Below are positions 19,694 through 61,239 of a stretch of DNA of 64,000 bases, one piece after another. Positions within the stretch are counted from its first letter, which is position 1; the number at the start of each line of letters is the position of its first letter. The notes beneath the pieces are model-generated. The model searched no databases. It saw only the letters and a list, made by a program, of their open reading frames with translations, and was not told the origin of the DNA. The stretch comes from Odontesthes bonariensis. Its lineage: Eukaryota; Chordata; Actinopteri; Atheriniformes; Atherinopsidae. The stretch lies in NCBI RefSeq assembly GCF_027942865.1, contig NC_134507.1, positions 33,276,447 to 33,340,446 of the forward strand, read 5' to 3'. A program made the position numbers and the translations under genes.

Positions 19694-19849
19694 ACAATCC
19701 AGTCACAAATCAGTTTATGCCAACCGCCCTACCGCCACGTCTCTCCAAACCTCCAACTCCTCCGAACTACGATTTCGATTTCAAAATTCAAATCTACTCC
19801 ACGTCACCAAACCAACAGCTCGCCTCCGACACACTCAGGCTCCGCCTGC

Positions 19850-21964: not shown

Positions 21965-22037
21965 GCCTGGATAGCTCAGCTGGTAGAGCATCAGACTTTT
22001 AATCTGAGGGTCCTGGGTTCAAGTCCCTGTTCAGGTG
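21965..22037 (+). tRNA. tRNA-Lys (anticodon TTT)
   Basis: A 73-nt cloverleaf: D arm TAGCTCAGCTGGTAGAGCA, anticodon loop CTTTTAA, T loop TTCAAGT, intact A and B boxes. The acceptor stem closes with a G-T pair at position 1. One T-stem pair is mismatched (T where the usual tRNA-Lys has A). No T-run terminator follows closely. It may be functional or a mildly decayed copy. Confidence 0.8.
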
Positions 22038-23200: not shown

Positions 23201-26200
23201 AGTCTTAAGAGTCCTGACGTTTGTCTGAAGTCTGTTTAAAGTTTGTCCACGTCATTTCACCCTGAACTGACGATACAAAACAAAAATGGAACTTTTCTAT
23301 CTGGTTGTAACTTGGATTCTGGTGTCATGCCTGCTGCTTGCCCGAGACACAATGCAGGCCGCCCAAGCAAGAACTGTGTACAGCAGAGACCAGTTGCTTC
23401 AACTTCGCTTTGAGGGCGCGCACAACACACCAGATGCGGTTTTAAACTTACCAGACTGTATAAGAAAAGATCACAAGCCCGAACACTCGGCATGGCAGGG
23501 AAAAAAGAGGAAGCGGGGCAAACGCGGAGGTGTTCGTTTACGCCGGAGGAAGCGGTGTCTGAAACGGATCCCCCTCCCCACCATGATTTTAGGAAATGTA
23601 CAATCCCTTAGGAATAAACTCGATGAGCTGCAGGGAAACGTCCAGCTGCAGAAGGATTTTGGGGAATGCTGCGTCTTGGCCTTCACGGAGACCTGGTTGT
23701 CTGGGCACGACCAGGACCGAGAACTGTGGATCGGCGGTTTTGGATCACCTATCCGGACGGACAGAGATGCTAACATAACGGGGAAGACGCTCGCCGGAGG
23801 GGTATGTGTATACCTGAACAGGCGCTACTGTACTTCTGTGACTGTCAGAGAAAACATCTGTTTACCCGACATTGAGCTCCTGTCCGTGTCAATGCGTCCA
23901 TTCTATCTGCCACGCGAATTTCCGCAAATCTTTCTAACAGTCGTGTACATTCACCCGAAGGCAAATGCCACCATTGCCTGCAATGTTATTTCGGATGTCA
24001 TGCATAAATTACAATCACTCTCACCCGACGCTCCGAACTTTATCCTAGGTGACTTCAATCATGTGACGCTAAAACATTCCGTGAGAGACTTTTATCAGTA
24101 TGTCCCCTGTCCAACCAGGCGGGGAAAGACACTGGATCTCTGTTATGGTACAATGTAGGACGCCTACAAATCGATTCCACTGCCCCCGCTGGGCTCTGCA
24201 GACCATAACTGTGTTCAACTCATTCCCAAGTACGTCTTGAGAAGGGAACAAGTGCAAATTAAGGAAGTAAAGGAATGGACTGAGGATTCAGTTATGTGCC
24301 TTCAGGAATGTTATGACTGCACAGACTGGGACACTTTTACAGACTCCTGTAATGATTTGGATGAACTCACTGATGTGGTGTGTTCATATGTGGCTTTTTG
24401 TAGGGATATGATTATCCCATGTAAACAGATCAAGATTTACCCAAACAACAAGCCATGGGTAAATGGGACTATTAAAAGCTGTTTACAGAGAAAAAGGCAG
24501 GCTCACAAGCAGGGTACTGCTACTGATCTACATGTAGCCACCAGAGAACTGAAAACTGAGATATCTAAAGCCAAACAAAGATATAAGTCCAAACTCGAAC
24601 AAAGAATGGCTGAGAATAACCTTGGCTCTGCCTGGTCCTGTATGAAAACTATAGCTGGTATCCAGAACCAGAGTAAAAGTAACCATATATCCCTTGAAGG
24701 TTTTAAATCTGATAATGAGCTTGCAAATGCCTTGAATTGTTTTTATAACCGTTTTGATAAGTTTGATTTCAGCCAGGAAATTGGAAAACTCCAGTGCAAA
24801 CTCAGAGATGGTCAGCACACCAGCATCACATGTAGAGATGTTGAAAATGTCTTCTTCAAGACAAAGGTTAATAAAAGTTATGGACCAGACAATATCTGTG
24901 GGCATGTAATTAAGACATGTGCAAAAGAGTTGAGCTCAATATTCCAGCTCATTTTTAATAAATCTCTGCAGACACAACATGTACCCAAGGTATGGAAACA
25001 CGCTGTTGTGGTCCCTGTCCCGAAATGTGGCAGGCCAAGTACTTTGAACGATTTTAGACCCTTTGCCCTAACCTCAATTGTAATGAAAAATTTTGAGAAA
25101 TTGATAGGGTCACACATCTTAAGGCACACTGAAAATGCATTGGACCCCATGCAGTTTGCCTACAGGCCGAACAGAGGAGTGGAAGATGCTACCATCACCC
25201 TACTCCATCAGCTTCTAAAACATCTTGAAGGAAGTGGGTCACATGCACAAGTTTTATTTATTGACCTTTCATCAGCTTTTAACACCATCCAACCACACAT
25301 TTTAATAAACCGTCTTCTTACACAATTTTCTTTAAGTTTTAATCTTGTTGGTTGGATTTTAGACTTTTTAATTAATAGGACACAGGAAGTCAGGGTGAAT
25401 GGAGTCATGTCCAGTCAACTTTGCTCCTCCACAGGCTCGCCACAAGGGTGCGCACTCTCACCCCTCCTGTTCATCCTGTATACGAACATGTGTCAGAGTA
25501 CTTTTGCTAATAGGACCATAATTAAATATGCAGATGACTCTGTCATTGTAAGCTTGCTACAGAAGAACGAACGAGGTCATGGACCAATAGTAGAAGATTT
25601 TGTACAGTGGTGTGAGGAATCATATCTTCAACTGAACATAGCAAAAACAAAGGATATGCACATTGATTTTGGAAACAATCCTAGGCATGAGGCCACCACT
25701 ATGAAAGGTCAAATAGTGGAACAAGTTAAATCCTATAAATGCTTGGGGACAATCATCGACGCCAAACTAAATCTCCGGGAGAATTGTGAGGCTATATGCA
25801 AAAAAGGACAACAGCGGTTACACTGTTTGAGGAAGCTTTACCAGTTTAATGTAACAAGACCATGATGATTTTGTTTTATCACTCTTTTATTGAATCAATT
25901 ATATCTTTTTCTTTAGCATCATGGTTTGGCAATATTCCCCTTACACACAAGAACCGCCTATACCAAATTGTCAAGTGGTCAAGCAAACTAATTGGGGAGA
26001 CACAGCTGCACCCTTCTTCCCTATACACAAGACAACTACAGCGGATAGCAATGGGTATCCTGGATGATAGCCGACACCCCTTGAATAATGAATTCCAGTA
26101 CCTCCCCTCTGAACGGAGGCTGGGAGTTCCTGGTTGCAGAACCAACAGATTCTAAAACAGTTTTGTCCCAGCTGCAGTTATTCTGCTAAATAAGATGTAA

Positions 26201-31227: not shown

Positions 31228-31299
31228 GGCTCGTTGGTCTAGGGGTATGATTCTCGCTTCGGGTGCGAGAGGTCCTGGGTTCAAATCCCGGATGAGCCC
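31228..31299 (+). tRNA. tRNA-Pro (anticodon CGG)
   Basis: A 72-nt cloverleaf with anticodon loop TTCGGGT, acceptor stem GGCTCGT pairing with ATGAGCC (one G-T), and T loop TTCAAAT. One T-stem position is a T-G wobble. A and B boxes are intact. No long T run follows immediately. Confidence 0.9.
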
Positions 31300-39478: not shown

Positions 39479-39666
39479 ATCGCTTCTCGGCCTTTTGGCT
39501 AAGATCAAGTGTAGTATCTGTTCTTATCAGTTTAATATCTGATACGTCCTCTATATGAGGACTACATATTAAATGGATTTTTAGGCACAGGGGTTGAAAA
39601 AGGGGCTTGCTCCGTTCACTCCACGCATCGACCCGGTACTGCAGTGCCGCCGGGAACGGTGCACTC
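39479..39666 (+). ncRNA. U2: U2 snRNA, copy 1
   Basis: A 188-nt match to vertebrate U2: the 5' end ATCGCTTCTCGGCCTTTTGG, the branch-site recognition segment GTGTAGTATCTG, an Sm site in GGATTTTTAGG, and the 3' stem ending GGAACGGTGCACTC. U2 pairs with the intron branch point in the spliceosome. All key segments are intact. Confidence 0.95.
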
Positions 39667-40033
39667 TTCCCAACTCTTGTGAAATAACAAAACCAGCGGT
39701 ACATGGTGGTAGTTTCAGGGAGCCGTTGTATTCTGACTTCTAAAATAGGACTATAATCTTTAGAAAAGACGCAGTTTATGAGCATGTCGTGGGACTGAGC
39801 TTCCCTGGTTTCCCTGTATGACCATGAACACCAAACTACACACAGAGAACAGAGGAGCTTGACAGACACACACTAAGTTATCTGAGAGTCCCATTTTCAG
39901 CTGCAGAGAACAATCACATCAGGGAAGTCGACGTGCAGGCTCAACATCAGCCTCTCAAGCCAACTCTCTGGTGAAATAGGGGAAACGTATGGTTCCAGCA
40001 CCTATGTAACACATATTTGTCACGGGGACTGTG

Positions 40034-40152
40034 GCTTACGGCCACACCGCCCTGAACACGCCCGATCTCGTCCGAACTCGGAAGCCAAGCAGGGTCGGGC
40101 CTGGTTAGTACTTGGATGGGAGACCGCTTGGGAATACCAGGTGCTGTAAGCA
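40034..40152 (+). rRNA. 5S: 5S rRNA, copy 1
   Basis: A 119-nt match from GCTTACGGCCACACCGCCCT to GTGCTGTAAGC, with the internal control region intact (A box AGCCAAGCAGGGTCGGGCC, C box GGATGGGAGACCG). A T run follows as Pol III terminator (40153-40157). A component of the large ribosomal subunit. Confidence 0.95.
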
Positions 40153-40157
40153 TTTTT
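40153..40157 (+). terminator. Pol III terminator of 5S copy 1
   Basis: A run of five T directly follows the 5S gene. Confidence 0.8.
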
Positions 40158-40361
40158 CTCTCTTCTCTCTGCATGTCTTTTGTTGAAACATCTGATGATC
40201 ACCCTGTGATCCATCTTGCTGATCCTGGATCTGCTAAGGTGTCCCAGGTCATGGTTGCCTTTGATCCTCATACATTTAACTTTGTCCTGACAAAGGAGCA
40301 GTTCCAAAAAGTCAAACAGGGACTGCCTTTGCAAACTGCATGCGCCTGGAGAAGCCAAAAG

Positions 40362-40438
40362 GCTTACAGCACCTGGTATTCCCAGGCGGTCTCCCCATCC
40401 AAGTACTAACCAGGCCCGACTCTGCTTAGCTTCTGAGA
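40362..40438 (-). pseudogene. Antisense 5S fragment, unit 1
   Basis: The minus strand carries the 3' two thirds of 5S (AGAAGCTAAGC through GGTGCTGTAAGC) without the 5' third. It has GAGTCGGGCC where the gene has GGGTCGGGCC, and the B/C boxes are partly kept. It is repeated in unit 2, so it is part of the amplified unit. Confidence 0.85.
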
Positions 40439-40678
40439 TAAAACTCTGGCTTTTAGTCTGCGAAAAGAGAGTGAAAGTGAACTCCACTTTGAGATGGCTC
40501 TGGGATTGGGCCGACTGGGAGAATTGCTTGAAAAAAAGCTCTACACCCAATGAGCGGTCAGAACAAAGCCTCAACACCCCTAGTCTTTTGCACAGAGTAA
40601 AAGACAAAGCAGCCATTGAATAGGGCCCGATTGTTCCTACCTGGTCGGCCGAGGAGCCAGCGTCTCAACCAAGCAAAG

Positions 40679-40698
40679 CTCACCGTGGGGAAGGTGGC
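40679..40698 (+). promoter_or_regulatory. Proximal sequence element of U5 copy 1
   Basis: CTCACCGTGGGGAAGGTGGC lies 47 bp before U5, close in spacing and form to vertebrate snRNA proximal elements. Identical at 42374-42393. Confidence 0.5.
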
Positions 40699-40744
40699 TA
40701 TGCCAACTAGCCTGATGCACTGCTCCCGCAGTGTCAAATACTCG

Positions 40745-40863
40745 TACTCTGGTTTCTCTTCATAACGTACAAGTCTTTCGCCTTTTACTAAAGACTTCCG
40801 TGGAGAGCAGCATTAATGAGTTGTTTTTATTTTTGGAAGGCTTTACCTTTGCGGGTGAAGCCC
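40745..40863 (+). ncRNA. U5: U5 snRNA, copy 1
   Basis: About 119 nt: TACTCTGGTTTCTCTTCATA, then the invariant loop CGCCTTTTACTAAAG with its flanking stem (AAGTCTT and AAGACTT), an Sm site ATTTTTGG, and a 3' stem GGCTTTACC/GGGTGAAGCC. The loop holds exon ends during splicing. The exact 5' end is uncertain by a few bases. Confidence 0.92.
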
Positions 40864-41160
40864 ATTCTGTCTGTGCAAAGGAAATCTTCTTGCTGTGCCA
40901 AGTGACTTCTCGGAGTAGAGTCACCTTATTTCTTGAGACCGTGCCCATGTTCGAAGCTGGAGCGCTAAATTGTTGTTGTTTGAATGGTGCTCAGTGGAGC
41001 GGGCGGGAGTGCAAAGTTGTACCATCTGAAACGGCTGAAGAGTGCTCACTGCAGCGGGTGGGCGGAGGTGCAAAGTGACGCTTTGTAGGCAAAAAAAGAG
41101 CACCGCCACAAGTGCGCATTGTGCCAGGAAGGGCTCTCGGACGTGAAACAGTGGAGGGTT

Positions 41161-41348
41161 ATCGCTTCTCGGCCTTTTGGCTAAGATCAAGTGTAGTATC
41201 TGTTCTTATCAGTTTAATATCTGATACGTCCTCTATATGAGGACTACATGTTAAATGGATTTTTAGGCACAGGGGTTGAAAAAGGGGCTTGCTCCGTTCA
41301 CTCCACGCATCGACCCGGTACTGCAGTGCCGCCGGGAACGGTGCACTC
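41161..41348 (+). ncRNA. U2: U2 snRNA, copy 2
   Basis: Same as copy 1 except for an ACATGTT in place of ACATATT near position 90. All functional segments are intact. Confidence 0.95.
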
Positions 41349-41715
41349 TTCCCAACTCTTGTGAAATAACAAAACCAGTGGTACATGGTGGTAGTTTCAG
41401 GGAGCCATTGTATTCTGACTTCTAAAATGGAACTATAATCTTTAGAAAAGACGCAGTTGATGAGCACGTCGTGGGATTGAGCTTCCCTGGTTTCTCTGTA
41501 TGACCATGAACACCAAACTACACACAGAGAACAGAGGAGCTTGACAGACACACACTAAGTTATCTGAGAGTCCCATTTTCAGCTGCAGAGAACAATCACA
41601 TCAGGGAAGTCGACGTGCAGGCTCAACATCAGCCTCTCAAGCCAACTCTCTGGTAAAATAGGGGCAACGTATGGTTCCAGCACCTATGTAACACATATTT
41701 GTCACGGGGACTGTG

Positions 41716-41834
41716 GCTTACGGCCACACCGCCCTGAACACGCCCGATCTCGTCCGAACTCGGAAGCCAAGCAGGGTCGGGCCTGGTTAGTACTTGGATG
41801 GGAGACCGCTTGGGAATACCAGGTGCTGTAAGCA
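41716..41834 (+). rRNA. 5S: 5S rRNA, copy 2
   Basis: Identical to copy 1 over 119 nt, followed by a T run. Confidence 0.95.
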
Positions 41835-42056
41835 TTTTTCTCTCTTCTCTCTGCATGTCTTTTGTTGAAACATCTGTTGATCACCCTGTGATCCATCTTG
41901 CTGATCCTGGATCTGCTAAGGTGTCCCAGGTCATGGTTGCCTTTGATCCTCATACATTTAACTTTGTCCTGACAAAGGAGCAGTTCCAAAAAGTCAAACA
42001 GGGACTGCCTTTGCATTTGACGCAGTCAAACTGCATGCGCCTGGAGAAGCCAAAAG

Positions 42057-42133
42057 GCTTTCAGCACCTGGTATTCCCAGGCGGTCTCCCCATCCAAGTA
42101 CTAACCAGGCCCGACTCTGCTTAGCTTCTGAGA
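42057..42133 (-). pseudogene. Antisense 5S fragment, unit 2
   Basis: As in unit 1, with GCTTTCAGC in place of GCTTACAGC at the edge. Confidence 0.85.
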
Positions 42134-42373
42134 TAAAACTCTGGCTTTTAGTCTGCGAAAAGAGAGTGAAAGTGAACTCCACTTTGAGATGGCTCTGGGA
42201 TTGGGCCGACTGGGAGAATTGCTTGAAAAAAACCTCTACACCCAATGAGCGGTCAGAACAAAGCCTCAAGACCCCTAGTCTTTTGCACAGAGTAAAAGAC
42301 ATAGTAGCCATTGAATAGGGCCCGATTGTTCCTACCTGGTCGGCCGAGGAGCCAGCGTCTCAACCAAGCAAAG

Positions 42374-42393
42374 CTCACCGTGGGGAAGGTGGC
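42374..42393 (+). promoter_or_regulatory. Proximal sequence element of U5 copy 2
   Basis: Identical in sequence and spacing to the element of U5 copy 1. Confidence 0.5.
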
Positions 42394-42439
42394 TATGCCA
42401 ACTAGCCTGATGCACTGCTCCCGCAGTGTCAAATACTCG

Positions 42440-42558
42440 TACTCTGGTTTCTCTTCATAACGTACAAGTCTTTCGCCTTTTACTAAAGACTTCCGTGGAG
42501 AGCAGCATTAATGAGTTGTTTCTATTTTTGGAAGGCTTTACCTTTGCGGGTGAAGCCC
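42440..42558 (+). ncRNA. U5: U5 snRNA, copy 2
   Basis: Differs from copy 1 at one base in the U-rich segment before the Sm site (TTGTTTCTATTTTTGG against TTGTTTTTATTTTTGG). Loop and stems are the same. Confidence 0.92.
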
Positions 42559-42855: not shown

Positions 42856-42904
42856 ATCGCTTCTCGGCCTTTTGGCTAAGATCAAGTGTAGTATCTGTTC
42901 TTAT
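42856..42904 (+). pseudogene. U2: Truncated U2 (first 49 nt), unit 3
   Basis: U2 runs normally to CTGTTCTTAT and then joins spacer sequence (AGTAGTTTCAGGGAGCC) that lies 3' of U2 in full units. The Sm site and 3' stems are gone. Confidence 0.9.
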
Positions 42905-43187
42905 AGTAGTTTCAGGGAGCCGTTGTATTCTGACTTCTAAAATAGGACTATAATCTTTAGAAAAGACGCAGTTTATGAGCATGTCGTGGGACTGAGCTTC
43001 CCTGGTTTCCCTGTATGACCATGAACACCAAACTACACACAGAGAACAGAGGAGCTTGACAGACACACACTAAGTTATCTGAGAGTCCCATTTTCAGCTG
43101 CAGAGAACAATCACATCAGGGAAGTCGACGTGCAGGCTCAACATCAGCCTCTCAAGCCAACTCTCTGGTAAAATAGGGGAAACGTAT

Positions 43188-43210
43188 GGGAATACCAGGT
43201 GCTGTAAGCA
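43188..43210 (+). pseudogene. 5S: 5S remnant (last 23 nt), unit 3
   Basis: GGAATACCAGGTGCTGTAAGC follows directly on spacer AACGTATG. The internal promoter is lost. Confidence 0.9.
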
Positions 43211-43515
43211 TTTTTCTCTTCTCTCTGCATGTCTTTTGTTGAAACATCTGTTGTGACACAGATTTCTGAATAATATGCATCCTATTCTAATACAAAGCTT
43301 TTATACTAGTCTCATGCCATTACTACATGGAACAATTTTCTATTAATATCCCATAGTTATACAGATTTATAACTACAGTAATGCAATCGTGTCAGCCTCT
43401 GTGCTTTTTTCCCCTCTATAACTTGTAAACTAAACAACTGGTTATACTATACAGGATGGCTGTGTGTGTGTGTGTTAGTGTGTGTGTGTCTGTCTGTGTG
43501 TGTTTACAGAAGCAA

Positions 43516-45593
43516 ATGGATCCTCTGATGCCTGTGCTGTCCATCCTGGACACAAGCTTCCCTAAGGACAGGCAGCAGTGTGTGCTTGGGATGACCAAGG
43601 AGGCCAAGGACTTCCTTAAGGCACATGCACGGGACCGTGAGACAGTGGACAGTAGGCTGAGAGACTCAGACAAGGCTTACAAAGAAGGTGAGAAGAGTGC
43701 ATGCACAACCCTGTGCTTACAACTGCACTACTGTCTAGGCATGATTACTTTAATTTTGTTCCCCCTTATTTATCTGTCTACAGCTTTGAAGAAATGCCAG
43801 ATCGTCACACCCTCTCCGACTGAGGCGCAAGTCCTGGGGCAGCTGGTGATGACCTTTGGCCAGTACACCAGCAAGAGCTTCAAGTGGCTGGTCGAGAATG
43901 ATGTCGGCTACTGCAAATAGTAAGTGTGGTACACTAAATGTGATCGCCATGTGAATAGTGTTATAACTTAATAGTACTGTATCACTATGTTACATTACTA
44001 TGCCATTTCAGAATCGTCAACCGCCACATGAACGAGATGAGGCACCCTGAGAAGAGGAAGACCATCAACGACGAGTGGCTGAAGGAGCAGCTGGTCAAGT
44101 ACGCGCACCTCTTCACCACCGTCTCGTGCCACCTGGAGGTGAATGTGGACCGGGCCATCTATGGACAGGGGAGGTTCAAGTCGTTCACCTACCTGGAGAT
44201 GTGGCAGTGGTACAGCCTGCACAAGAGGCTCCTGGTGGATCCTCAGGCTGGCAGCGACGCTGAGAGGAAGAGGGCGCAGGAGGCCTACACGTCGGTGACA
44301 CAGTGGCTCCTCATGAAGGAGGATGACATCAATTCAAAGGCCCTGAAGAGGTTCAGAAAGTACATTATGGACAAGGAGGTATGTGTGCAGGTGAACATGT
44401 GTATAAAGGAATAACATAACAAATGTATTGAGCACAACTGAAATGTAATATTCCTCCTAATACCTCAGCAGGGTGTAGCCACTCCTTCCACCGCATCTGC
44501 TTCCTCCAACAAGCCCCCAGCAGCATCTGCAGCAGCAGCAGCAGCACCACCCACCACCAGCAAGGCCCTCCATCACCTCCTCCTCCTGCATCTCCCTCCA
44601 TCACCAGCAAGGCCCCAGCAGCATCTGCAGCAGCAGCAGCAGCAGCAGCAGCACCCACTGCCACCATCAGCAAGGCCCCTCAATCACCTCCTCCTCCTGC
44701 ACCTCCCTCCATCACCAGCAAGAATCGTCCATCAGCCACACCTACCTCCACCACAAAGCCCCCTTCAGCACCAGCAGCAGCAGCAGCATCCCCCACCACC
44801 ACCGCGAAGCCGAAGAAGAAGGCCTCCTCCAAGTCGGCTGCCCCAACACCATCGCCTGCCACCCCAGCACCCCGTGCAGCTGTGCCCACCTCTTCACCGG
44901 TACCCTCCTTCTTTGTGCCCCGTCCATCAGCCACCACTGCCAGCTCAGCAGACCCCAGCTGAGAAGACGACGCTCTGCTTGTGGAGGCTCTGTCCACCTA
45001 CGAAACACAAGGTACATATTCATTTAACACAAGTTGTATTAGTTTACTGGCTAATAGCACACAGATCGTGCATGTCACATCCAGTGGGCTGCTGTAATGA
45101 AAAGCCTCATTCCACAGTGTGGATATACTATAATCAATGTGTTTTGGGTTTTTTTGTATTTACAGAGAGCCAGTCACAGGAGGCAGTTGGTGGTGAAGAC
45201 GCCATCCTGTTTGAAGGATGGCACAAATCCTGGGAGGCTGAGGACAGCGGGCTGCCCAAGCAAGACATTAAGTGGCTGAAGGAGGATGAGGAGAGGGGGC
45301 TCTTTCTGAAGCCGCGGCCCTTCTCTGACATGTACGGCAGGAATAGGTGGAGGAAGATCCTGAAGAGTGAAAAGATGTGGTTCCACCCTCCCGAGATGCC
45401 CGGTGTGGTGGATGGCAGCACGGTCCCCGTGGCAGACAGTTTCTTCCGACACCGCGTCTTCTTCTGGAGGCCAGTTGGTGTGTGGCGCTACAGCGAGCCC
45501 GGCTGCCCTGCCAAGGACAACCCGAAGGCTTTCCTGTACCGCTGTGGCTACGGCAACACGGTGAGGCCCATCTGTGACATCAACGGCTGGTAA
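43516..45593 (+). pseudogene. Copy A gene: N-terminal half of the Dada-like protein, broken
   Basis: Exon-like blocks 43516-43687, 43784-43919, 44012-44378, 44469-45011 and 45166-45593 line up with exons 1-5 of the copy B gene, with the same phases. Block 2 carries TFGQYTSKSFKWLVENDVGY and block 5 GLFLKPRPFSDMYG and FFWRPVGVWRY. Joining blocks 2 and 3 makes TA|A, a stop where B has Tyr. Block 4 is frameshifted and has TGA where B has Trp. Block 5 runs straight through the site of B's intron 5 and stops after ICDINGW, so no transposase core is present. It could instead be a short expressed relative with other splicing, but that seems less likely. AATAAA lies at 46179. Confidence 0.7.
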
Positions 45594-45765
45594 ATGACTG
45601 ATACTGAGGCCCAGTGACTGATCTTGACTTGTCTGAACTTTTTTTTTCTCTTATCTTTGATGTCACTTTATGTTGTTGTTTGTGTATATAGTTTCCTGAT
45701 TGCACTCCTACATGCACATGTATACAGTTCTCATTTTTATTGTTCACTTACACTTGATTTCTTGT

Positions 45766-46165
45766 TTGTTCCCATATCTGCTGTGGCACATACTCCACAT
45801 GGCTCTTCTGTCTGCCGACTGCTCCTGGTCAGTCAGTCTGTCTGTCTCTCTCTCTCACACACACACACACTTAATTTCAAATATCTTTTCATGACAAATG
45901 TGCACTATACATGTCTTCACTTTGTTTACCAAATGAGCATGCAACTTGTTTGTTCCCATATCTGCTGTTGCACATGGCTCTCTCTCCTGTCTGCCCACTG
46001 CTCCTGGTCAGTCAGTCTGTCTCTGTCTCACACACACACACACTCCCTCCACCTCCACCTCACCCCCCCCCCCCTTCTCGCTCTTTCTCCCCCTCACACA
46101 CTTAATTTCAAATGTCTTGTCATGAAAAATGTGCACTATACATGTCTTAACTTTGTTTACTAAAT
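45766..46165. repeat. Two tandem copies of about 190-200 bp in the copy A 3' region
   Basis: The block from CTTGTTTGTTCCCATATCTG through CACTATACATGTCTT occurs twice (from about 45761 and 45947), each with CA/CT microsatellites of different length. Confidence 0.8.
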
Positions 46166-46189
46166 GAGAATGCACTTGAATAAATGCAC

Positions 46190-46965
46190 TTCAGCCATTA
46201 AAGTGCCTTGAATCGCAGTAGCAGTGTGTTGTGTCATTTCTTATTCCAAGTCAACACTTTCAATGTTCTCCTTCAATCTATTCATTATAATGTAACCTAC
46301 CAGTAATTATAATCATTCATGATATACCATCATCTGTAATAATAAACACATGAACAGCATACAACTGTGAAGAAATAAAAAAGTTTATTGACTTAATAGA
46401 CAATGTTGCAGAGGTAACAGTGTGTCATTTCCCCCATAATCAATGTCTCCATCACCATGTAGGCCTCAAACCAGCGGGTCGACCAATGGGAAGACAAAAA
46501 TAAGAGCTTTAGAGGTTTTGTTTACGTTCACATCCACATGTTTCTAATAATAGCCACACCAATTAGTCTCATGTCTTTTTTTAACCACCTTTTTCTTTTT
46601 TTCATACAATACCAAGTACCAGCTGGTGGGTGAAAATTAATAAATCACTCAAATGAAGTGATCAATAGACAGCAATGCAAGCATTAAAACACGATTCAAT
46701 GTCCAACACTCCCAATTAGACAAAACACTTGTATAAAACGATCATTTAAATCGTATTTTGTACATTTCCCTAGATTCACCCTGCCACAACACTTCACCAC
46801 ATGGCCTGGCAGCTTTTGACAGCTAATTGACCAATAGTACAGCATGCCCATGATTTCCCATCCCTCCCTCTCCATTGATTTGATTGACAAATCTTTTACC
46901 CAATAATGTGCCTTATTTGTCCTACAGTCTACATCTGATTTTGCACTTTGTACGCGCTGAGGGCC
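46190..46965. other. Non-coding right part of copy A
   Basis: No frame of note. TTTATT at about 46382 could serve as a minus-strand poly(A) signal. The end carries the AGTGCAA subterminal motif. Confidence 0.4.
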
Positions 46966-47061
46966 GCTCGCAAGGGTCAGCACAGCCGGTGTGCAATGGC
47001 TGAGCCTCGTCCTGGGTGAACCACCTTCTTGATCATGGTATCTCCCCTGCCAGGTAAGTAT
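46966..47061 (-). pseudogene. U1: U1 5' part (96 nt), cut by copy A
   Basis: Has the 5' splice-site recognition segment ATACTTACCTG, stem-loops 1 and 2 (AUUGCAC loop for U1A), then stops at TTGCGAGC, where the transposon end begins. Stem-loops 3-4 and the Sm site are gone. Confidence 0.93.
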
Positions 47062-51885: not shown

Positions 51886-51960
51886 CAGGGGAGAGCGCGA
51901 ACGCAGTCCCCCACTACCAGAAATTATGCAGTCGAGATTCCCACATTTGGGGAGCTCGCA
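51886..51960 (-). pseudogene. U1: U1 3' part (75 nt), cut by copy B
   Basis: Holds stem-loop 3, the Sm site and stem-loop 4, then ends at GCTCGCA on the plus strand, next to the transposon left end. With the 96-nt piece beyond the transposon (61144-61239) it accounts for the whole 164-nt gene plus a 7-base overlap. Confidence 0.93.
51954..51960. repeat. Left target duplication of copy B (GCTCGCA)
   Basis: GCTCGCA, against ATTCGCA at the right side (61144-61150). Five of seven bases agree. Identical to the sequence at the right end of copy A (46966-46972). Confidence 0.7.
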
Positions 51961-52013
51961 GAAGATTTCCGAACTGAAGTGCAAAAGTCTACGTTTCTTG
52001 TAGACAGTTACGG

Positions 52014-52104
52014 CCTGTCATTGGCCTAGAGTCTACGTTAAGTGTAGACTCTAGGCCAATCAGAGAGGAGTCTACATTCTAAATGTAGACTCTAGGCCAA
52101 TCAG
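52014..52104. repeat. Palindromes near the left end of copy B
   Basis: ATTGGCCTAGAGTCTAC (52020-52036) and its exact inverse (52044-52060) are separated by 7 bases. Next to it GAGTCTACATT/AATGTAGACTC forms a second, 11-bp palindrome. The block TAGACTCTAGGCCAATCAGA occurs twice. These may be transposase binding sites. Confidence 0.8.
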
Positions 52105-52242
52105 AGAGGCTCTTGGCCAATTCAAGCCAAACCAACTCGCGAAATACCGAGAGGCTGCTACGAAGGTACAGTTTGTTACTACGATCATATTCTAGCGATA
52201 TACCTCTGTAATTGATAAAAAATGTCCCGCATTTACCTACTA

Positions 52243-53130
52243 CGATTATATTCTAGCGATATACCTCTGTAATTTATCAAGAAGATCACCTGTTTATATG
52301 TAATACAAGGTTTTTAGCGTAATGTTAAAGCTGGGTGACCGGAGGGTGTTAGCAACGCTATAAAGTTTATTTTTAGGAAAAAAAATATACAGCATGGCTT
52401 TATTTATATCATTTTCCTGTCTTCTTTGTGAATGTCACATCAACAGATAACAGATAACGTTTTTAACGTTGTAACATGGAAGTCGAGTGACACCAGCGGC
52501 AGTACAGGTCTGCAGCCAGACCCTCTAGCTCGTCTGCGATCATATTCTAGCGATATACCTCTGTAATTTATTAAGAAGATCACCTGTTTATTTTTAATAC
52601 AAGGTTTTTAGCGTAATGTTAAAGCTGGGTGACCGGAGGGTGTTAGCAACGCTATAAAGTTTATTTTTAGGAAAAAAAATATACAGCATGGCTTTATTTA
52701 TATCATTTTCCTGTCTTCTTTGTGAATGTCACATCAACAGATAACAGATAACGTTTTTAACGTTGTAACATGGAAGTCGAGTGACACCAGCGGCAGTACA
52801 GGTCTGCAGCCAGACCCTCTAGCTCGTCTGCGATCATATTCTAGCGATATACCTCTGTAATTTATTAAGAAGATCACCTGTTTATTTTTAATACAAGGTT
52901 TTAAGCGTAATGTTAAAGCTGGGTGACCGTACGCTGTAAATATCTGCGCGTTGCTCCATGGGTGTTTTGTTTAATCAACGCTATAAAGTTTATTTTTAGC
53001 AAAAGAAAAAAATACGTCATGGCTATATTTATATCATTTTCCTGTCTACTTTGTGAATGTCACATCAACAGATAATAGATAACGTTTTTAGCGTTGTAAA
53101 ATGAAAGTCGAGTGACATCAGCGACAGTGC
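52243..53130. repeat. 294-bp tandem repeat, about three copies
   Basis: Units starting CGATYATATTCTAGCGATAT lie at 52243, 52537 and 52831; the first two pairs are nearly identical and the third is diverged after 52920. A partial start occurs at 52180. It occupies the non-coding leader of copy B. Confidence 0.85.
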
Positions 53131-53385
53131 ACATGCGCTCTTTCAAGCTGCAACTCTGTCAAGTGCGTCTGTGATTTGGCCCGGAGCCATTATTTATGCA
53201 AAAAAAAAAAATAAAATATCCACCTCGTTTGGATGAATTTTAATACGTGTTACATTTGCCTGTTGTACATTTTCAATTCTGGTGGCAATGCTATGGCTTT
53301 TGCCTCCATTTGTCTAATAATAGTGACTATTGCAATGGTTATAATGATCATGATATTGCTAAAAGTCTGTTGACAATTTCAGGAC

Positions 53386-53852
53386 ATGGATACTTTGCTG
53401 CCAGCCCTCAACATCCTGAACACCAGCCTGCCGGCAGAGAGGCAGCAATGCGTTCTGGCAGCCTCCAAGGCAGCCAAGGCCCAGCAGGGGAGAGGTCAGG
53501 TTTGTCCGAGGGACGATAAACTGAGGGACCCCAAGACTGCCTTTGAGGAGGGTAAACATCTTGGCATTGCATTTATACTATAAATATATAAGTAATGACA
53601 ATGTGGTGCACTAGAGCTTTTGCTTGCCTGTTCACTGAGGTCATAACATGTCTCGTCTTCAGCAAAGAGGCGCTGCGGCGTACAGAGGCCGACTGAGGCC
53701 CAGTACTTGGGGCAGCTGGTCCTGACCTTCGGCCGCTACACCGGCCGGACCTTCAAGTGGCTGGTCGAGAACGACGTGGGCTACGTCAAGTAGTAAGCAT
53801 TTACAAGAAAACCAAAGCAAGCCAGGAACAGTTTTCCCTTCACTGAAACTAA

Positions 53853-53890
<38 letters not shown>

Positions 53891-56800
53891 ATTTCAGTCT
53901 CGTCGACCGCCACGTTAAAGAGAGCCGGCAGCCGGAGAAGCGTGGGGCCATCAATGAGGAGTGGCTGAAGGACAGCCTGCTGCAGTACGTGGAGCTTTTT
54001 CCGGCCATCTCCTGCCACCTCGAGAGGAACGTGGACAAGGCCATTTACGGCATGGGCCGTTTCCGGTCGTTCACGTTCCTCGAGATGTGGCAGTGGTACC
54101 AGCGCCACCAATCTGACCCTCAAGCCGGCAGTGAGCAGGAGCGGAGGATGGCGCAGGAGGCCCACAGCTCTGTCAAGCAGTGGCTGCTGATGCGGGAGAG
54201 TGACATCACCTCGAAGTCACTCAAACGCTTCAGACAGTATATACTGGATAAAGAGGTAACTACACTGCATTCTGTAACTACACTGCATTCTGTAACTACA
54301 CTGCATTCTGTAACTACACTGCAAAACCCAATAATAATGTAATAGCTCACACTCACCTGTAATTCACAGAGCGCCACTCCTCCTCCTGCTGCTGCCGCCG
54401 CTGCCACTTCAAGGGCCCCTGCTGCAGCTGCCACCTCCCAGGCGCCATGGTCTGACGACGCTCCGGACGACACTGCTCTGGTGGATGCCCTCATCACCTT
54501 CGAGAGCCATGGGGAGCCCATCTCCGCCAGTCAGCCTCCTCCTATGTCCGCCGAGGGTCCCAAACAGCCGTCGCCACTCTCCACCAGCGTGCCAGCTTCT
54601 CCAAAGAAGTCTACCAGCAAGAAGGAAAGGCGCAGCAAGCAGCAGAAGCCGTCCTCACAGCCGTCCACCAGCACGGCTGCCTCAACACAGCACAAGCAGC
54701 TCCTGCTGTCCTCACAGGCGTCCACCAGCACGGCTGCCTCAACACAGCACAAGCAGCTCCTGCTGTCCTCACAGCCGTCCACCAGTAAGGCTGCCTCAAA
54801 GCAGCTCCTGCTGTCCTCACAGCCGTCCACCAGCAAGGCTGCCTCAAAGCAGCTCTTGCTGTCCTCACAGCCGTCCACCAGCAAGGCTGCCTCTACTGAG
54901 TCTCCTGAACAACAGACGCCCGTGCCGTCCTCAGCGCCTGGTCAGGGTCCCCCTGATGCTCGTCCCGAGGAGCCGCCGTCGACCTCACAGCCTGCGTCTG
55001 CCACCACCTTGTCACAGAGTGACTCTTCTGTAAGTGTAAAATCACAAAATACACAAGCAATGTTAATGCATTTCACAAAATCACCACATTAGGGAAAATA
55101 AATAACTAAATGTTGTGCGTTGTTGTACACCTTGTGTCTTGCAGGTGGAGCTGGAAGGCTGGGTGCGCCTCTGGGAAGACCCCAACGGAATCCCCTCTGC
55201 CGACATCCCCTGGCTGAAGGAGGACAGCGAGCGAGGCCTCTTCACACCAGTCCAGGTCTACAAGGACATAAAGGGCGCCATTAGAAGGCGGCGAGTGTTG
55301 AAGTCAGACCGGATGTGGTTCTACCCACCCGAGCCACCCGGCTTTGTGAGCGGCGGCATTCCCACTCCACAGGCCTTTTTCCGAGGCCGCTTTTTCTTCT
55401 GGCGTCCCGTTGGAGTGTGGCGGTGCTCCCTGAAGTGTCCGCGCGGAGAGAAGTGTGCCGGGGCTGGAGGCAACTCACACCTCTCCAAGTCTGGCTACCA
55501 CTCCCGGGTAAGGCTCAGTCTCTGCACAGCTGTGCTCAGAGAAATACACACATCACCATGGACTACTTAACCTTGTAGCACCCAAGCATACGAATAATCA
55601 TTGAAAAAAATCATTTTGGCTCTTCTTGCATCTTTTTGGGTGGGAATAAACCAATATTTTTGGAATTTTTGAAATTGGGCTATTTTTAATCATTTTAGGC
55701 AATGTTGCATATTTGCAACTGTGGGCTTTCCTGATTAATTTTGTTCACACAACCAAGTCATTCTCTGCAGATCGATTGGCAAAAAAGGTATAGTGAACTG
55801 CTGCTACCACAATAAAATGTATGTAATAGATCTTTATTGAACATTCTTAATACAAAGTGCGGAACGCAACCATCATAAACTTTCCATTCAACAACAAATC
55901 AAAAAGATTTCACAGATCTTTGTTGTGAAAAAGGGAAGCACACATAAAATGCAAAAAATGTAATGTAAATAAATAATGTAAATAAATAAAAAGCTTGTTG
56001 CATATCTGCAACCTGTGATTGACCTGTGATTCTCTCTCTCTCTGTTTTAGGTACGTCACATCTGTGATGTGTTGGGCTGGTACACCCTGGCGACAGAGGT
56101 GTTGTCGTGCGGGCCGTGTCTCAAGGCTGCCAGAGGTGGAGAGAGCGGACCCATGGGTCGGTGGCTGGCGTGGGACGACGCCATCCTCCGGCAGCTGAGC
56201 GAGGCACATCGCCTCCTGCGTGACAGAACGGAGGGTAACACGATGGTCAAGGTGTGGCGGCAGGTGCAGGAGAACCACCTGGAGGACTACCACGAGAGGA
56301 AGGACCTCTACACCACACTCCTCATGGCCCTGGTGGAACCCAGAGGCATCGTCTCTGCGCTGGGCCACAGGGAGTTCCAGGCACCGCCCCCTCCGAGAGC
56401 GGTTCCCTGCGCCCGGCTCCTGCGCCACGCCTTCCTCCTGGCCGAGGCGGACAACGTGCAGGATTACCGGAGCCAGATCCTGTCCACGTTCGGCAAAGTG
56501 CTGAAAATGGACTCCACGAAGAAGGCAAGTTAGCCAAAAGTGTGTTGCATACAAGTACTCACAGGGAAACACCACATTATGCAAAGCTAAACTGTATTTG
56601 TTTGTTTGTTTTGTTGTAGGTGGTGAAGAAGCTGTCTGGGGAGGGCAAGGGCTCGGCTGAGTGGTTCACCAGCATCGGCAACGAGCTCTCCCAGATCGTC
56701 AGCTTTGTGCTCACCTGCGAGGAGTCGGTGGAGAAGCTGGGGCCCATGTGTCGTGGGGTGATGGAGAGGTTTCGCCTCGCAAACCAGCCCGTCCCCCAGA

Positions 56801-59690
56801 TCCTCTACATCGACCGCGGCTGCTGCAAAGCACAGGGTCCGACCGCGGTGGAGATCATGTTCCAGTCCTGGGTGGACGAGGGGATGGTGGTGAGGCTGGA
56901 CATTTTCCACTGGCTCCACCGTTTTGACGCCGCTCTAAGAACGGAGGCTCACTCCAAATACGGCCCCTTTAAATCCGCACTGGTCGGGGCGGTGCTGGCC
57001 TACAACCGCGAGGACCTCCAGCTCCTCATCGCTGCCATCAGGGCCAGAGACCCGGCCACCATGGAGGTGGTGAGTGACGAGGACGTGGTCCGGCGGTACG
57101 TCTCCCGGGACCAGCTGAAGCACCATGTCCGGCGCGTCACCCTCGGGGCCCAGGAGACGTTTCGCCTGGTCCACCTCCTCATCGAGGACCTGAAGGGTCC
57201 AGCAGGGCTGGATGAGAGCGGCGTCAGCCTCTTCAAGTCCCCTGGTAAGGAAAAAAAAACACCTCACACACACACACACACGTGCAAAATGACTACAGCT
57301 CAACATGTGTGTGTGTGTTTACAGCGGCCATTGATGAGATGTGGGCAGCCCAGCAGCGACACCTGGAGTGCATCCAGGACCCCCCAGGCATGGTCATGTA
57401 TCGTGTCGCCCGCACCACCACCATCAACGGTGTGGACGTCCCATATTACAAGGGCCTGCGTGGGAGCAACAGCCTGGAGGGGTTCCATAAATCTTTGCCC
57501 CACATGATTCCAGGTAATCTAAGGGGGAAAAATACCAACAAAAAAAACACGTTTATCACATGATAACTGAGGTACTGATAATACCTGTTTGTTGTGATGT
57601 TCAGGTCCCCACTGTGCGGCGCGGCCTTATCAGGTTTACCTGATAAGCGGCATCGCCAGGTGGAACGCTGACCGCAGCTCAGACGCGGTGTTTGGGGGCG
57701 GAGGGCGGCACCACCGGGTGTACTCTGCGCCGCTCATTGACCGCCTGAACTCCCGCTGCCAGCAGCTGTTGGGCGAGCCAGTGGAGCGCAACTTCCGGGC
57801 CCCGGCTGATGTCCAGTCCGATGAGCTGCTCGGGCTGGAGTACCTCTTCAGCCAAAGCACGGGGGAGGCGTTCTCGCTGGAGGGCATCGTCAGCGACGGT
57901 CCTGGGCCGGAGGAGGAAGTCGTACAGCCTGGGGAGGTCGACCCAGACGCCGACGAGGCGTACCAGAGCGAGGAGGACCGTACTGATGTGGAGCCCCACA
58001 TCAGACTGACCAGCAGCGAGACTGCTTCGGTCAACCCTCCTGCCTTTGTGAGTCCAATACATACTGATAGAAGAGAATACAGCGATACATGTGACCCGCT
58101 AAAAAAAACAAGACATCGTATACATTGAAACTTACCTACTTTTCTGTGTGTGTGTGTGTTTTACAGGATGATGTCTGCAGTGTCAGTCCTCTGCCCGGGT
58201 TCCAGAAGCTGGAGGCTTTCTGTGCTGCGCTGCTGGAGGTCGGCTTGACAGAGCAGAAGCTGCTCCTCAGCACAGCAGAGCGGAACAGGGTCCTTCATGC
58301 CTGGAATGCGGTGGAGGAGCATGACAAGCAGCCACAGCGGTACCACCAGCTCTACCGCACCCACTGGGGCAACACGCTGTATTGTCGGACCAAGAGGGAC
58401 GACCTGGCTGACGCCGCCGTGGTCCAGCGGGTAAAGATGGCTAGGAGGTACGCGCCAGCTCAGCAGGACATCAGCCCGCAGCACAACCGGCTGATGTACG
58501 TGCTGGTCAAGCTGCTGTGGCTGCGCAGCCCTCAGGCCTCTCGCTCCAGCCCTGAGAAGGCCAACATTCTCAAGGCCTATGAGAGGATCCAGCACCGGGT
58601 CTTGGTAGAGGACCCCGTCCTGTGCAAGGCGGGCATCCCTCTCCCCAAAATTAACACCAAGACGGTGAGAGACTTCATCCGCCAGCAGGAGAGGCTGGTC
58701 AACCTCCACGCCACCAGGCAGCCAGCTGTGACCTCAAAGGCCGCGTCTGTGTCTTGTGAGCAGCTGCCTCCTGCACCGCGCCAGCCGGACGTCCTCCCTC
58801 CACCCGACTACCCCGTGATGGAGTACGTCCCCACGCCCAGCACAGCCGGCACCAAGGTGTTGAAGGGTCGGACCAACCTGCTGCTGGAGACGCCGCAGCC
58901 TCCTCCACAGCTGCTCCGTCTGCCGGTGAGGAGAATCCCCACCACCTCCACCATCACCAGGCCTCCTGCAGTGCTGCCCCTCGTCTCCTGCTCTGCCCCG
59001 TCCACCATCACCACGCCTCTGCTGCCCCTCGTCTCCTGCTCTGCCCCGTCCACCATCACCAGGCCCACTGCAGTGCTGCCCCTCGTCTCCTGCTCTGCCC
59101 CGTCCACCATCACCAGGCCTCCTGCAGTGCTGCCCCTCGTCTCCTGCTCTGCCCCGTCCACCATCACCACGCCTCTGCTGCCCCTCATCTCCTGCTCTGC
59201 CCCTTCCACCATCACCACGCCTCTGCTGCCCCTCGTCTCCTGCTCTGCCCCGTCCACCATCACCAGGCCCACTGCAGTGCTGCCCCTCGTCTCCTGCTCT
59301 GCCCCTTCCACCATCACCACGCCTCTGCTGCCCCTCGTCTCCTCCTCCACACAGCCTGCTGGTCAGGCCTCCATCCCGCAGGTCACGGCGTCTGTGCCCA
59401 TCAGGCCAGGTGTAAAGCCGCCCTCTAGACAAAGTGCTGTGGCAGGGTTGTCGTGGTACCGATCGACTCTGTACAAGAGAAAGCTGGCAGACCACCCCAC
59501 TGAGCTGGGCGTGGAGGTGCAGCGTCTCCCGGCCTGCAAAGTTTGCGGGCACAAAATCCAGGGACACAAAAAATATGAAAAAAAGACATATTGCCCTGAG
59601 ATCCACCGTTCACCCTCCAAAGGACTGGAAGACATAGTTTTCAAAAACTTTGAACACTTCATGTCCGTTGTGGACGGACTGGAGGAGTGA
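53386..59690 (+). CDS. Dada-like transposase, ten coding exons, about 1643 residues
   Basis: Exons: 53386-53551, 53663-53792, 53898-54255, 54370-55029, 55145-55507, 56051-56524, 56620-57244, 57325-57513, 57605-58047, 58167-59690. All phases agree. Introns are GT-AG except intron 6, which needs a GC donor (AAG|GCAAGT). Residues about 1-218 include a module with LVLTFGRYTGRTFKWLVEND, GYVKYLVDR. Residues 219-438 are Ser/Thr/Pro/Gln-rich. Residues 439-610 hold a Cys/His module (DRMWFYPPEPPG, FFWRPVGVWRC, C-x4-C, HICDVLGWY, LSCGPC) that resembles a DUF6729-type zinc domain. The catalytic core follows: D713 (KMDSTKK), D782 (LYIDRGCC), D811-x2-H814 (LDIFHWLHRF) and E977 (SNSLEGFH). The tail has proline repeats and a Cys cluster (CKVCGHKIQGHKK). 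It should cut and rejoin the element ends and choose the U1 target. Start matches copy A. AATAAA at 60585. Confidence 0.82.
54650..54900 (+). repeat. Coding repeats in exon 4
   Basis: Units encoding LLLSSQPSTSxAAS recur about five times. All length changes are multiples of three. Confidence 0.8.
55508..56050 (+). other. Intron 5 of the copy B gene, absent from copy A
   Basis: 543 bp with GTAAGG donor and TTTTAG acceptor, between CGG and GTACGTCACATC. Copy A reads straight through (ACGGTGAGGCCCATC). The intron contains repeat-like sequence with GTTGCATATTTGCAAC and GTTGCATATCTGCAAC near its two ends. Confidence 0.7.
58945..59345 (+). repeat. Coding minisatellite in exon 10
   Basis: Alternating units encode STITRPPAVLPLVSCSAP and STITTPLLPLVSCSAP, eight in all, in frame. 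It falls between the core and the C-terminal Cys cluster and looks like a length-variable linker. Confidence 0.85.
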
Positions 59691-59750
59691 ACGGTCGGCC
59701 CCTTGTAAATAGTGTATATAGTTGCTGTATTCATGCTCTGCATTCTGTGT

Positions 59751-60395
59751 GTTGTTCTCTGCACTGTTGCCCTATTTCATTCACTTTATGTGGGGTTGTT
59801 CTCTGCACTGTTGCCCTGTTTCATTCACTTTATGTGGGGTTGTTCTCTGTGTTCTGGACGAACAATTGCCCTTAAACATGGCACGTGTTGTTCTCTGCAC
59901 TGTTGCCCTGTTTCATTCACTTTATGTGGGGTTGTTCTCTGCACTGTTGCCCTGTTTCATTCACTTTATGTGGGGTTGTTCTCTGTGTTCTGGACGAACA
60001 ATTGCCCTTAAACATGGCACGTGTTGTTCTCTGCACTGTTGCCCTGTTTCATTTACTTCATGTGGGGTTGTTCTCTGCACTGTTGCCCTGTTTCATTCAC
60101 TTTATGTGGGGTTGTTCTCTGCACTGTTGCCCTATTTCATTCACTTAATGTGGGGTTGTTCTCTGCACTGTTGCCCTATTTCATTTACTTTATGTGGGGT
60201 TGTTCTCTGCACTGTTGCCCTGTTTCATTCACTTAATGTGGGGTTGTTCTCTGCACTGTTGCCCTATTTCATTCACTTTATGTGGGGTTGTTCTCTGCAC
60301 TGTTGCCCTGTTTCATTTACTTCATGTGGGGTTGTTCTCTGCACTGTTGCCCTATTTCATTCACTTTATGTGGGGTTGTTCTCTGCACTGTGCCC
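59751..60395 (+). repeat. 44-bp tandem repeat in the 3' UTR
   Basis: About 14 units of GTTGTTCTCTGCACTGTTGC ... TTATGTGGG, some joined into longer units by an insert (CTGTGTTCTGGACGAACAAT). It follows the stop codon by 60 bp. Open frames through it are a by-product of the repeat. Confidence 0.85.
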
Positions 60396-60584
60396 TTTAA
60401 AGTTGCACTTCTGTGATGCTCTGTAAACTGTGCCATTACATTTTGTATTGCTCCACAATGCCATGCAATTCATGGTCCTCTGTGCCCTCTCTGAGTGCCC
60501 TTTAACGCAGCACCTTTTGTTGTTCCTCGGCACTGCACACTCTGGTGTCAACATTGCCCTTGGATGCTGTTTGCTGTGGTACTG

Positions 60585-60590
60585 AATAAA
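60585..60590 (+). terminator. Poly(A) signal of the copy B gene
   Basis: AATAAA about 900 bp after the stop codon, just beyond the 44-bp repeats. Confidence 0.6.
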
Positions 60591-60639
60591 AATGGTCAGT
60601 GCTACAGTCACAATGAGTCGTGGAGTGTCTGTCAATTGA

Positions 60640-61143
60640 TTCAACAATAACAGAGCCTAGTTATCAGAAATAAGTGCCATATAAATAAATGGCTTCTAGG
60701 GAAGTAGCATAAGAGGCATAGGAGTAAGTGATAATCAACAATACTTTATTGAAAGAAAGGGAGCAAAAAAAAATACATGGCATGAATTTTGAATAGCTTT
60801 TTGTTCATACACACACTTGAGATACGGCAAAAGTATGACAATAAATGCATTTAACACTTTATTCTGTTGATTGACATGACAAAACCATGCAAAAGCATGC
60901 CAGGAGGGGACTTTTGTGCGCAAATGGATGCAGGGGGCTTATGCTTGGTGCAACTATAAAATTGTGTGCCATTTGTGCTGTAATATCCTGGTCCTTCCTG
61001 GTCCATCCTGGTCCACAAGACCTGGAGGAAGGCATATGCAAATTACTCTTGAGGTCAGTGACATCAGAATTCTTAATTGCACCTACGTGGACTCTAAGCC
61101 AATGGCTCGCAGGGTCAATTGCACTCCTATTCAGCACATCGCC
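60640..61143. other. Non-coding right end of copy B
   Basis: No gene. TTTATT at about 60743 and 60859 would be AATAAA on the minus strand. The inverted terminal blocks lie at 61084-61125. Confidence 0.4.
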
Positions 61144-61150
61144 ATTCGCA
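61144..61150. repeat. Right target duplication of copy B (ATTCGCA)
   Basis: ATTCGCA, the sequence found at this place in intact U1 copies. Confidence 0.75.
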
Positions 61151-61239
61151 AGGGTCAGCACAACCGGTGTGCAATGGCTGAGCCTCGTCCTGGGTGAACC
61201 ACCTTCTTGATCATGGTATCTCCCCTGCCAGGTAAGTAT
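61144..61239 (-). pseudogene. U1: U1 5' part (96 nt), cut by copy B
   Basis: Same extent as the piece beside copy A. The 5' recognition segment and stem-loops 1-2 are intact; the rest lies 9.2 kb away at 51886-51960. Confidence 0.93.

Follow-up and report, generated by a model that had tools for sequence, protein, structure and literature searches.

A Dada-U1 transposon in a split U1 gene of Odontesthes bonariensis, with its sister copies and their flanks

Introduction

How does a 9.2-kb DNA transposon come to lie inside a gene for the U1 small nuclear RNA (snRNA), and is it still able to move? These questions are raised by a stretch of 64,000 nucleotides (nt) of the fish Odontesthes bonariensis (NCBI RefSeq assembly GCF_027942865.1, contig NC_134507.1, positions 33,276,447 to 33,340,446, forward strand), here called the window, whose first letter is position 1 of all feature coordinates below. 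A preliminary description, made from the letters of the window alone, proposed that the insert belongs to the Dada-U1 family, that it is specific for its site and that, with an unbroken gene, it may be active. The insert is a known type of transposon, and we are highly confident of the overall explanation that we prefer: a Dada-U1 member that inserts specifically in U1, a family that moved recently, a window copy that is probably non-autonomous, and occasional carry-over of flanks or joining of one end only. Comparisons with earlier work refer to two papers, Kojima and Jurka (PMC3706591) and Kojima 2022 (PMC8869645).

A U1 gene cut once

By Rfam, the window contains nine intact U1 genes, each of 164 nt on the minus strand and spaced by about 713 bp within a run, together with three that are damaged (46937-47061, 51886-52045 and 61114-61239), and this minus-strand array stands next to a plus-strand U2-5S-U5 array at 39.4-42.9 kb. 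The features that define the insertion are as follows.

39479-42551, plus strand: U2-5S-U5 tandem array directly before the U1 array (U2 at 39479 and 41161; 5S at 40034 and 41716; U5 at 40744 and 42439)
51886-51959, minus strand: 3' part of the split U1 gene, 74 nt including the left 6-bp copy, from Rfam and comparison with intact copies
51954-51959, no strand assigned: left 6-bp target copy, GCTCGC (most intact U1 genes in the window have ATTCGC)
51960-61143, plus strand: Dada-U1 element, 9184 bp
51979-51984, plus strand: left subterminal motif GTGCAA, 19 bp from the 6-bp target copy
52019-52038, plus strand: left arm of a subterminal inverted block, 18 of 20 positions matching 61085-61104
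61085-61104, minus strand: right arm of the subterminal inverted block
61119-61124, minus strand: right subterminal motif GTGCAA (TTGCAC on the plus strand), 19 bp from the end
61144-61239, minus strand: 5' part of the split U1 gene, 96 nt, starting with the right 6-bp copy ATTCGC (61144-61149)
61169-61174, minus strand: GTGCAA inside U1, 19 bp from the target

Compared with intact copies, the U1 gene at 51886/61239 has been cut once with zero loss, its parts of 74 and 96 nt adding up to 164 nt plus 6. The preliminary description was right about a U1 gene split without loss by an insert of some 9.2 kb, and right that the flanks are near-duplicates (GCTCGC and ATTCGC agree at four of six positions); its count of 75 and 96 nt with 7 shared must be corrected to a duplication of 6 bp. 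The longer count arose because it included base 51960 (A), which fits U1 and the element alike and whose assignment is ambiguous; we set the limits 51960-61143 by applying the published 6-bp duplication (PMC3706591).

The ends of the element resemble those of its zebrafish relatives. Zebrafish Dada-U1 is described as having no terminal inverted repeats and as carrying subterminal GTGCAAT/ATTGCAC at the same distance as in U1 (PMC3706591). Here the equal distance holds for the six-base motif GTGCAA, which lies at an offset of 19 in the left end, the right end, U1 and the right end of a second element in the window (see below); the seventh base, T, is present only in the right end and in U1. Additionally, the related inverted blocks that had been noticed at the ends withstand a randomization test, as the 20-bp block with its 18 matches scores 16, a value reached by none of 1000 dinucleotide shuffles (best score, 15).

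A Dada-type transposase with a missing segment

The element carries a predicted transposase gene, the parts of which are listed here.

53386-59690, plus strand: transposase gene, 10 coding exons, 1643 amino acids, inferred from splice signals and open frames
53386-53551, 53663-53792, 53898-54255, 54370-55029 and 55145-55507, plus strand: exons 1-5
56051-56524, 56620-57244, 57325-57513, 57605-58047 and 58167-59690, plus strand: exons 6-10
Residues 536, 542, 579 and 582: N-terminal CCCC cysteines
56208-56209, plus strand: site of a 57-nt in-frame deletion (19 amino acids) relative to six sister copies, with TCG microhomology at the break
56510-56512, plus strand: catalytic D713 (LKMDSTKK)
56812-56814, plus strand: catalytic D782 (YIDRGC)
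56899-56910, plus strand: DxxH motif, D811-H814
57477-57479, plus strand: catalytic E977 (SLEGFH)
59535-59594, plus strand: C-terminal CCHC finger (C1593, C1596, H1603, C1612)

All intron borders are GT-AG except for one GC-AG after 56524. Pfam recognizes the core as DUF6729 (PF20499, 1.3e-29) and finds no other family there. The catalytic residues are spaced by 69 (D713 to D782) and 195 (D782 to E977), as compared with 68 and 176 in Dada-U6_DR (PMC3706591). A protein search, limited in its scoring to the 8000 candidates with most words in common, found 32 relatives, and 31 of these were aligned, the one left out covering 34% of the query. Among the 31 homologues the first catalytic D is kept in 30, the second in 31, the D and H of DxxH in 31 and 28, and the E in 30; the C-terminal CCHC pattern occurs in 24, and C536, C579 and C582 match, by their spacing, columns that are kept in 28, with C542 placed by position only.

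The best relative among the candidates scored is from Phoxinus phoxinus (86% identity), followed by Alosa, Esox and Sebastes (77-79%) and, at greater distance, by proteins of sea star, lancelet and molluscs. A tree of 32 rows, which carry no target labels, joins the window protein to Phoxinus (100/98) and then to Alosa (100/100). The protein tree does not closely mirror the relationships of the host fishes; losses and old duplications can account for this poor fit, and we do not claim horizontal transfer. Six exact peptide patterns of the window protein found no match in a viral collection, a result that says little about distant relatives.

Is the window copy active, as had been suggested? 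Its open frame of 1643 amino acids is indeed there, but an open frame by itself is no proof of a functional copy, and it lacks 57 nt that are present in each of the six sister copies having the exon concerned. The 19 lost residues lie between the zinc-finger region and the first catalytic D, and their pattern FPA.LT..RG.D is kept, residue by residue, in 29-30 of the 31 homologues. In other words, the gene is unbroken in frame and incomplete in content, and the suggestion of activity does not survive: an active autonomous element would have a complete transposase, which the window copy lacks. Because of this in-frame deletion, we consider the copy most likely defective and probably no longer autonomous.

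The family as a whole makes a different impression. Over exons 5-9, seven copies are 97.5-99.6% identical, and the ratio of nonsynonymous to synonymous proportions (pN/pS) ranges from 0.12 to 0.73 among their 21 pairs, 15 of which fall at 0.2-0.4; these ratios are uncorrected, the pairs are not independent, and exons 4 and 10 (tandem repeats) and the copy at 38.18 Mb are left out. From this identity and these ratios, the Dada-U1 family looks to have been recently mobile under selection on its protein. Premature stops in the aligned exons of eight copies are absent from the window copy and the copy at 36.33 Mb and number 1-15 in five others, the last copy lacking most exons; these numbers are rough, as exon 10 is hard to align.

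Sister copies at one U1 site

The host genome (945 Mb, 187 contigs) was searched in pieces and the best candidates were scored, so that copy counts are lower bounds; positions in Mb refer to the window's own contig, C2. The left end occurs in at least eight copies on C2, besides two matches on contig C14 without the first 27-28 bases and other fragments, and the right end has at least 12 matches, 10 on C2 and two diverged ones on C14. All eight left ends on C2 abut the U1 site, seven in the orientation of the window copy and one (36.70 Mb) inverted, as do nine of the ten right ends on C2, one of them with an extra C. The exon with the second catalytic D has at least nine matches on C2, all with 93% identity or better; C14 has it in pieces (77-99%). 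The site specificity claimed from a single copy is thereby confirmed, and insertion at one U1 site by chance is not the explanation.

Together these observations identify the element. One multicopy small RNA gene, U1, is the target; ATTCGC stands on both sides of the element in normal U1 order in three of eight copies, which is a duplication of the length known for Dada (6-7 bp) and of the kind given for zebrafish Dada-U1, whose 6-bp duplication in U1 is GCGAAT/GCGAAC in the U1 sense (PMC3706591); and the protein has the DDE and DxxH motifs, an N-terminal CCCC and a C-terminal CCHC zinc finger. The assignment to Dada-U1, made beforehand from the window alone, is thus well supported: target site, subterminal motifs, arrangement of exons, catalytic motifs and zinc fingers all agree with it, as does the 6-bp duplication of the sister copies. 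As judged by their description, Dada-U1A_DR and Dada-U1B_DR of zebrafish share the U1 target, the 6-bp duplication, the equal-distance subterminal motif, a DDE transposase with introns and the presence of two families per genome (PMC3706591). The differences are the unequal flanks of the window copy (GCTCGC/ATTCGC), its 19-residue deletion and one sister copy in a head-to-head U1 context.

A few observations accompany these copies. Minisatellites lie in the element at 52243-52929 (294-bp units), 58947-59347 (48/102-bp, coding) and 59749-60390 (44/136-bp, 3'), and length differences among sister copies are partly located in them. One of the C14 right ends (93%), outside U1, is followed by GTTCGCAGG, resembling the zebrafish Dada-U1 duplication GCGAAC. 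At 36.33 Mb the right flank is not U1, and a sequence whose ends look hAT-like by eye (CAGAGCCGGACAG...CTGTCCGCCTCTG) lies some 5 bp away from the end of the Dada element. Many further Dada-like cores on C13, C16, C20, C22 and other contigs, mostly at about 30-50% identity, belong to other Dada-like families (153 matches in all, from the best 150 of 194 candidates scored).

A second element at the borders of arrays

The window contains a second Dada-type element, which bridges the U2-5S-U5 array and the U1 array.

42856-43253, plus strand: left neighbour, made of the first 49 nt of U2, the U2-5S spacer, the 5S 3' end and downstream flank
43254-46965, plus strand: second Dada-type element, a remnant interrupted by stops that keeps N-terminal exons and a portion of DUF6729; its right end is of the Dada-U1 type
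46966-47061, minus strand: right neighbour, a U1 5' part starting with GCTCGC

This remnant shows 65% identity over residues 100-218, and no DDE core was found within 43254-46965. We considered a Dada-U2 target and rejected it: what looks like a U2 junction at 42904/42905 is due to a deletion within the U2-5S-U5 unit, with array spacer following on its right, and the true break lies 3' of the 5S gene. On the left side, all four second-family copies read at length have the U2-5S-U5 unit; the break 3' of 5S was aligned for three copies and the window, and the fourth copy has the window layout by its match. The window, like one or two of these copies, has also lost most of the 5S gene. This break is near the Dada-5S site given in PMC8869645, yet it shows TGG microhomology, for which reason its position may be due to chance.

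On the right side, second-family ends number at least 20 on C2 (20 candidates scored). The 16 right flanks that were cut out comprise 11 at the U1 site (nine with ATTCGC, two with GCTCGC, one of the latter within the window), four at a second spot, in the U1 3' spacer, and one in other sequence. At the spacer spot, which resembles the U1 target (CAAGGG), TTGCCA precedes AGGGATATT. The four spacer ends are probably duplicates of one event, and several ends with a common derived U1 flank are probably duplicates as well; the 16 right ends are therefore not 16 independent events. Second-family elements thus sit at borders between snRNA arrays. Mixed flanks are reported for Dada-tL_DR and Dada-U6, where one end lies in the proper target and the other in another RNA gene, a spacer or a transposon, and for which the authors propose one-ended transposition (PMC3706591). 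The second family differs from these in having the U2-5S side on the left in all four copies fetched at length, with right neighbours of two kinds among those four copies and of three kinds among the 16 right ends.

Did a transposase make these junctions? The strongest competing account is that both kinds of array junction at Dada ends, U2-5S to U1 and U1 head-to-head (the copy at 36.70 Mb, which reads CTGACCCTT-ATTCGC-element-ATTCGC-AAGGGTCAG a U1 5' half flanking the element on either side), were produced when arrays recombined via Dada copies and not by one-ended transposase events, and we give it only slightly less than an even chance. The arrays are long and resemble one another, TGG microhomology marks the 5S break in the window, and near 37.07 Mb, where a second-family element runs straight into the body of a first-family element with both facing ends missing, the fusion looks like an ordinary deletion. 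Recombination does not account so readily for the several breaks that fall exactly at an element terminus or at the edge of the 6 bp.

Six base pairs that do not match

The left 6-bp copies of the eight elements read ATTCGC in five, GCTCGC in two and GTTCGC in one. Where do the aberrant ones come from? Exact searches of the whole genome found 203 empty sites GGGGAATTCGCAAGGGTCAG (with ATTCGC), no match to GCTCGC in the empty-site context, and no match to G[C/T]TCGC before AAGGGTCA or AGGGGTCA, mutated sites being able to escape such exact patterns. In the fetched loci, some 39 empty sites, with doubles removed by context, comprise 33 with ATTCGC, six with other variants and none with GCTCGC or GTTCGC. 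GCTCGC as a common U1 variant is rejected on both counts. Read on the opposite strand, GTTCGC is GCGAAC, and this is one of the two duplications given for zebrafish Dada-U1 (PMC3706591).

Replacement of flanks has been reported for Dada-tA (PMC3706591) and for tA, tY and perhaps tV, with the thought that an ancestral flank may travel with the element (PMC8869645). The present copies are like these in that the flanking 6 bp are replaced, on one or both sides, by sequence absent from the target gene, and unlike them in that Dada-tA, Dada-tY and Dada-tV target tRNA genes and this family U1. In the sections of PMC3706591 and PMC8869645 consulted here we found no description of flank replacement for Dada-U1, which their figures or supplements may show; our data extend it to Dada-U1 with a whole-genome denominator. 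A candidate source of the GCTCGC flank may be a similar box inside the right end of the element, AATGGCTCGCAGGGTCA.

One could argue instead that the mismatched flanks began as ordinary duplications and changed by mutation once the insertion had made the U1 halves useless, and that nothing was carried along. Split halves are unable to make U1, divergence among the 215-bp left flanks of six sister copies amounts to 1.4-4.2%, a single substitution separates GTTCGC from ATTCGC, and about six of the 39 empty sites also depart from ATTCGC. This account fares worse with three findings. Two left ends, in copies whose coding sequences are not most closely related, show an identical pair of neighbouring changes (AT to GC); two of the 16 second-family right ends show it too; and the inverted copy at 36.70 Mb has ATTCGC on its left, the place where GCGAAT would be expected from an ordinary insertion in that orientation. 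For the one-base change to GTTCGC, later mutation competes seriously with carry-over, for the common two-base change less so; as an explanation of all the flanks we put it below even.

We therefore return to carry-over and one-ended joining, which we infer from the junctions and hold less firmly than the membership in Dada-U1. The position of the insertion, the spacing of the motifs and the 6-bp copies can be read directly; binding, cutting and cut-and-paste movement are supplied by reasoning from them. The putative DDE transposase would recognize U1 DNA by its sequence via the GTGCAA box found 19 bp from the cut in U1 as well as in both element ends, would make a 6-bp staggered cut at GCGAAT (U1 sense), and would insert the element there. 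Sometimes the six bases beside the element may travel along and replace those of the target, and sometimes one end alone may be joined to a new site, which would leave mismatched, inverted or mixed flanks.

Repeated insertion or passive spread

Might the copies have multiplied without transposing, one insertion having been followed by duplication of the snRNA array? Four of the eight left ends have a second-family right end as a neighbour at 1.4-5 kb, and a derived U1 flank, AAGAATCAG, is common to six of the 16 second-family right ends, as passive spread would have it. Set against this are pN/pS values below 1 in all 21 pairs, the inverted order of the copy at 36.70 Mb and the flanks. Right flanks of eight copies (28 pairs; copies at 36.33 and 39.54 Mb left out) are 52.7-97.3% alike and left flanks of six (215 bp; copies at 36.33 and 36.70 Mb left out) 95.8-98.6% alike, as compared with 96.8-98.7% for a set of nine array units. 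As the right flanks are as varied as array units or more, a single insertion with recent duplication is not the simplest reading; an older duplication of copies is possible. Overall, we find passive spread improbable. That the element belongs to another DDE superfamily (MuDR, hAT, Kolobok or P) and sits in U1 by chance deserves next to no credence, for although DxxH and long duplications are common to these superfamilies and Dada (PMC3706591), the core matches DUF6729 alone in Pfam and the site, ends, motifs and zinc fingers fit Dada-U1 as described.

Several observations weigh against our preferred explanation of U1-specific insertion by a Dada-U1 transposase. The gene model is a prediction from splice signals and open frames; the DDE and DxxH residues were assigned by motif and not by alignment to a Dada reference protein; and sequence searches of solved structures returned no transposase and chance-level matches only, a result of little weight either way. 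Identical 6 bp on both sides in normal U1 order are seen in just the three copies of eight mentioned above, the window copy having its four of six, and the empty U1 sites themselves vary (about six of 39), so that the exact pattern misses mutated ones. Among the ends, the right end at 36.33 Mb (one of ten on C2) is not at U1, both diverged right ends on C14 are outside it, and the copies at 37.07 and 39.32 Mb have their right end at U1 and no left end within the fetched stretches.

Elsewhere in the window, long open reading frames at 14730-19702 (minus strand) and 23271-25865 (plus strand) have, by eye, the look of gag/reverse transcriptase of the long interspersed nuclear element (LINE) type, and two tRNA matches lie on the plus strand at 21965-22037 and 31228-31299.

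Outlook

Dada elements are reported as the first DNA transposons with such strict targets, and targeted gene delivery has been named as a possible use (PMC3706591). With sister copies in one assembly, the published idea of flank replacement becomes testable against 203 perfect target sites. We also put forward a more speculative mechanism, which we think unlikely: Dada-U1 may cut outside its 6-bp flank, so that flank and element together would form the mobile unit, joined to U1 without target duplication, in either orientation and one end at a time. If true, this would explain the GCTCGC and GTTCGC flanks that are not found in empty U1 sites, the head-to-head ATTCGC junction, and the Dada ends at the borders between U1 and U2-5S-U5 arrays; and the transposon would then be a builder of snRNA array architecture.

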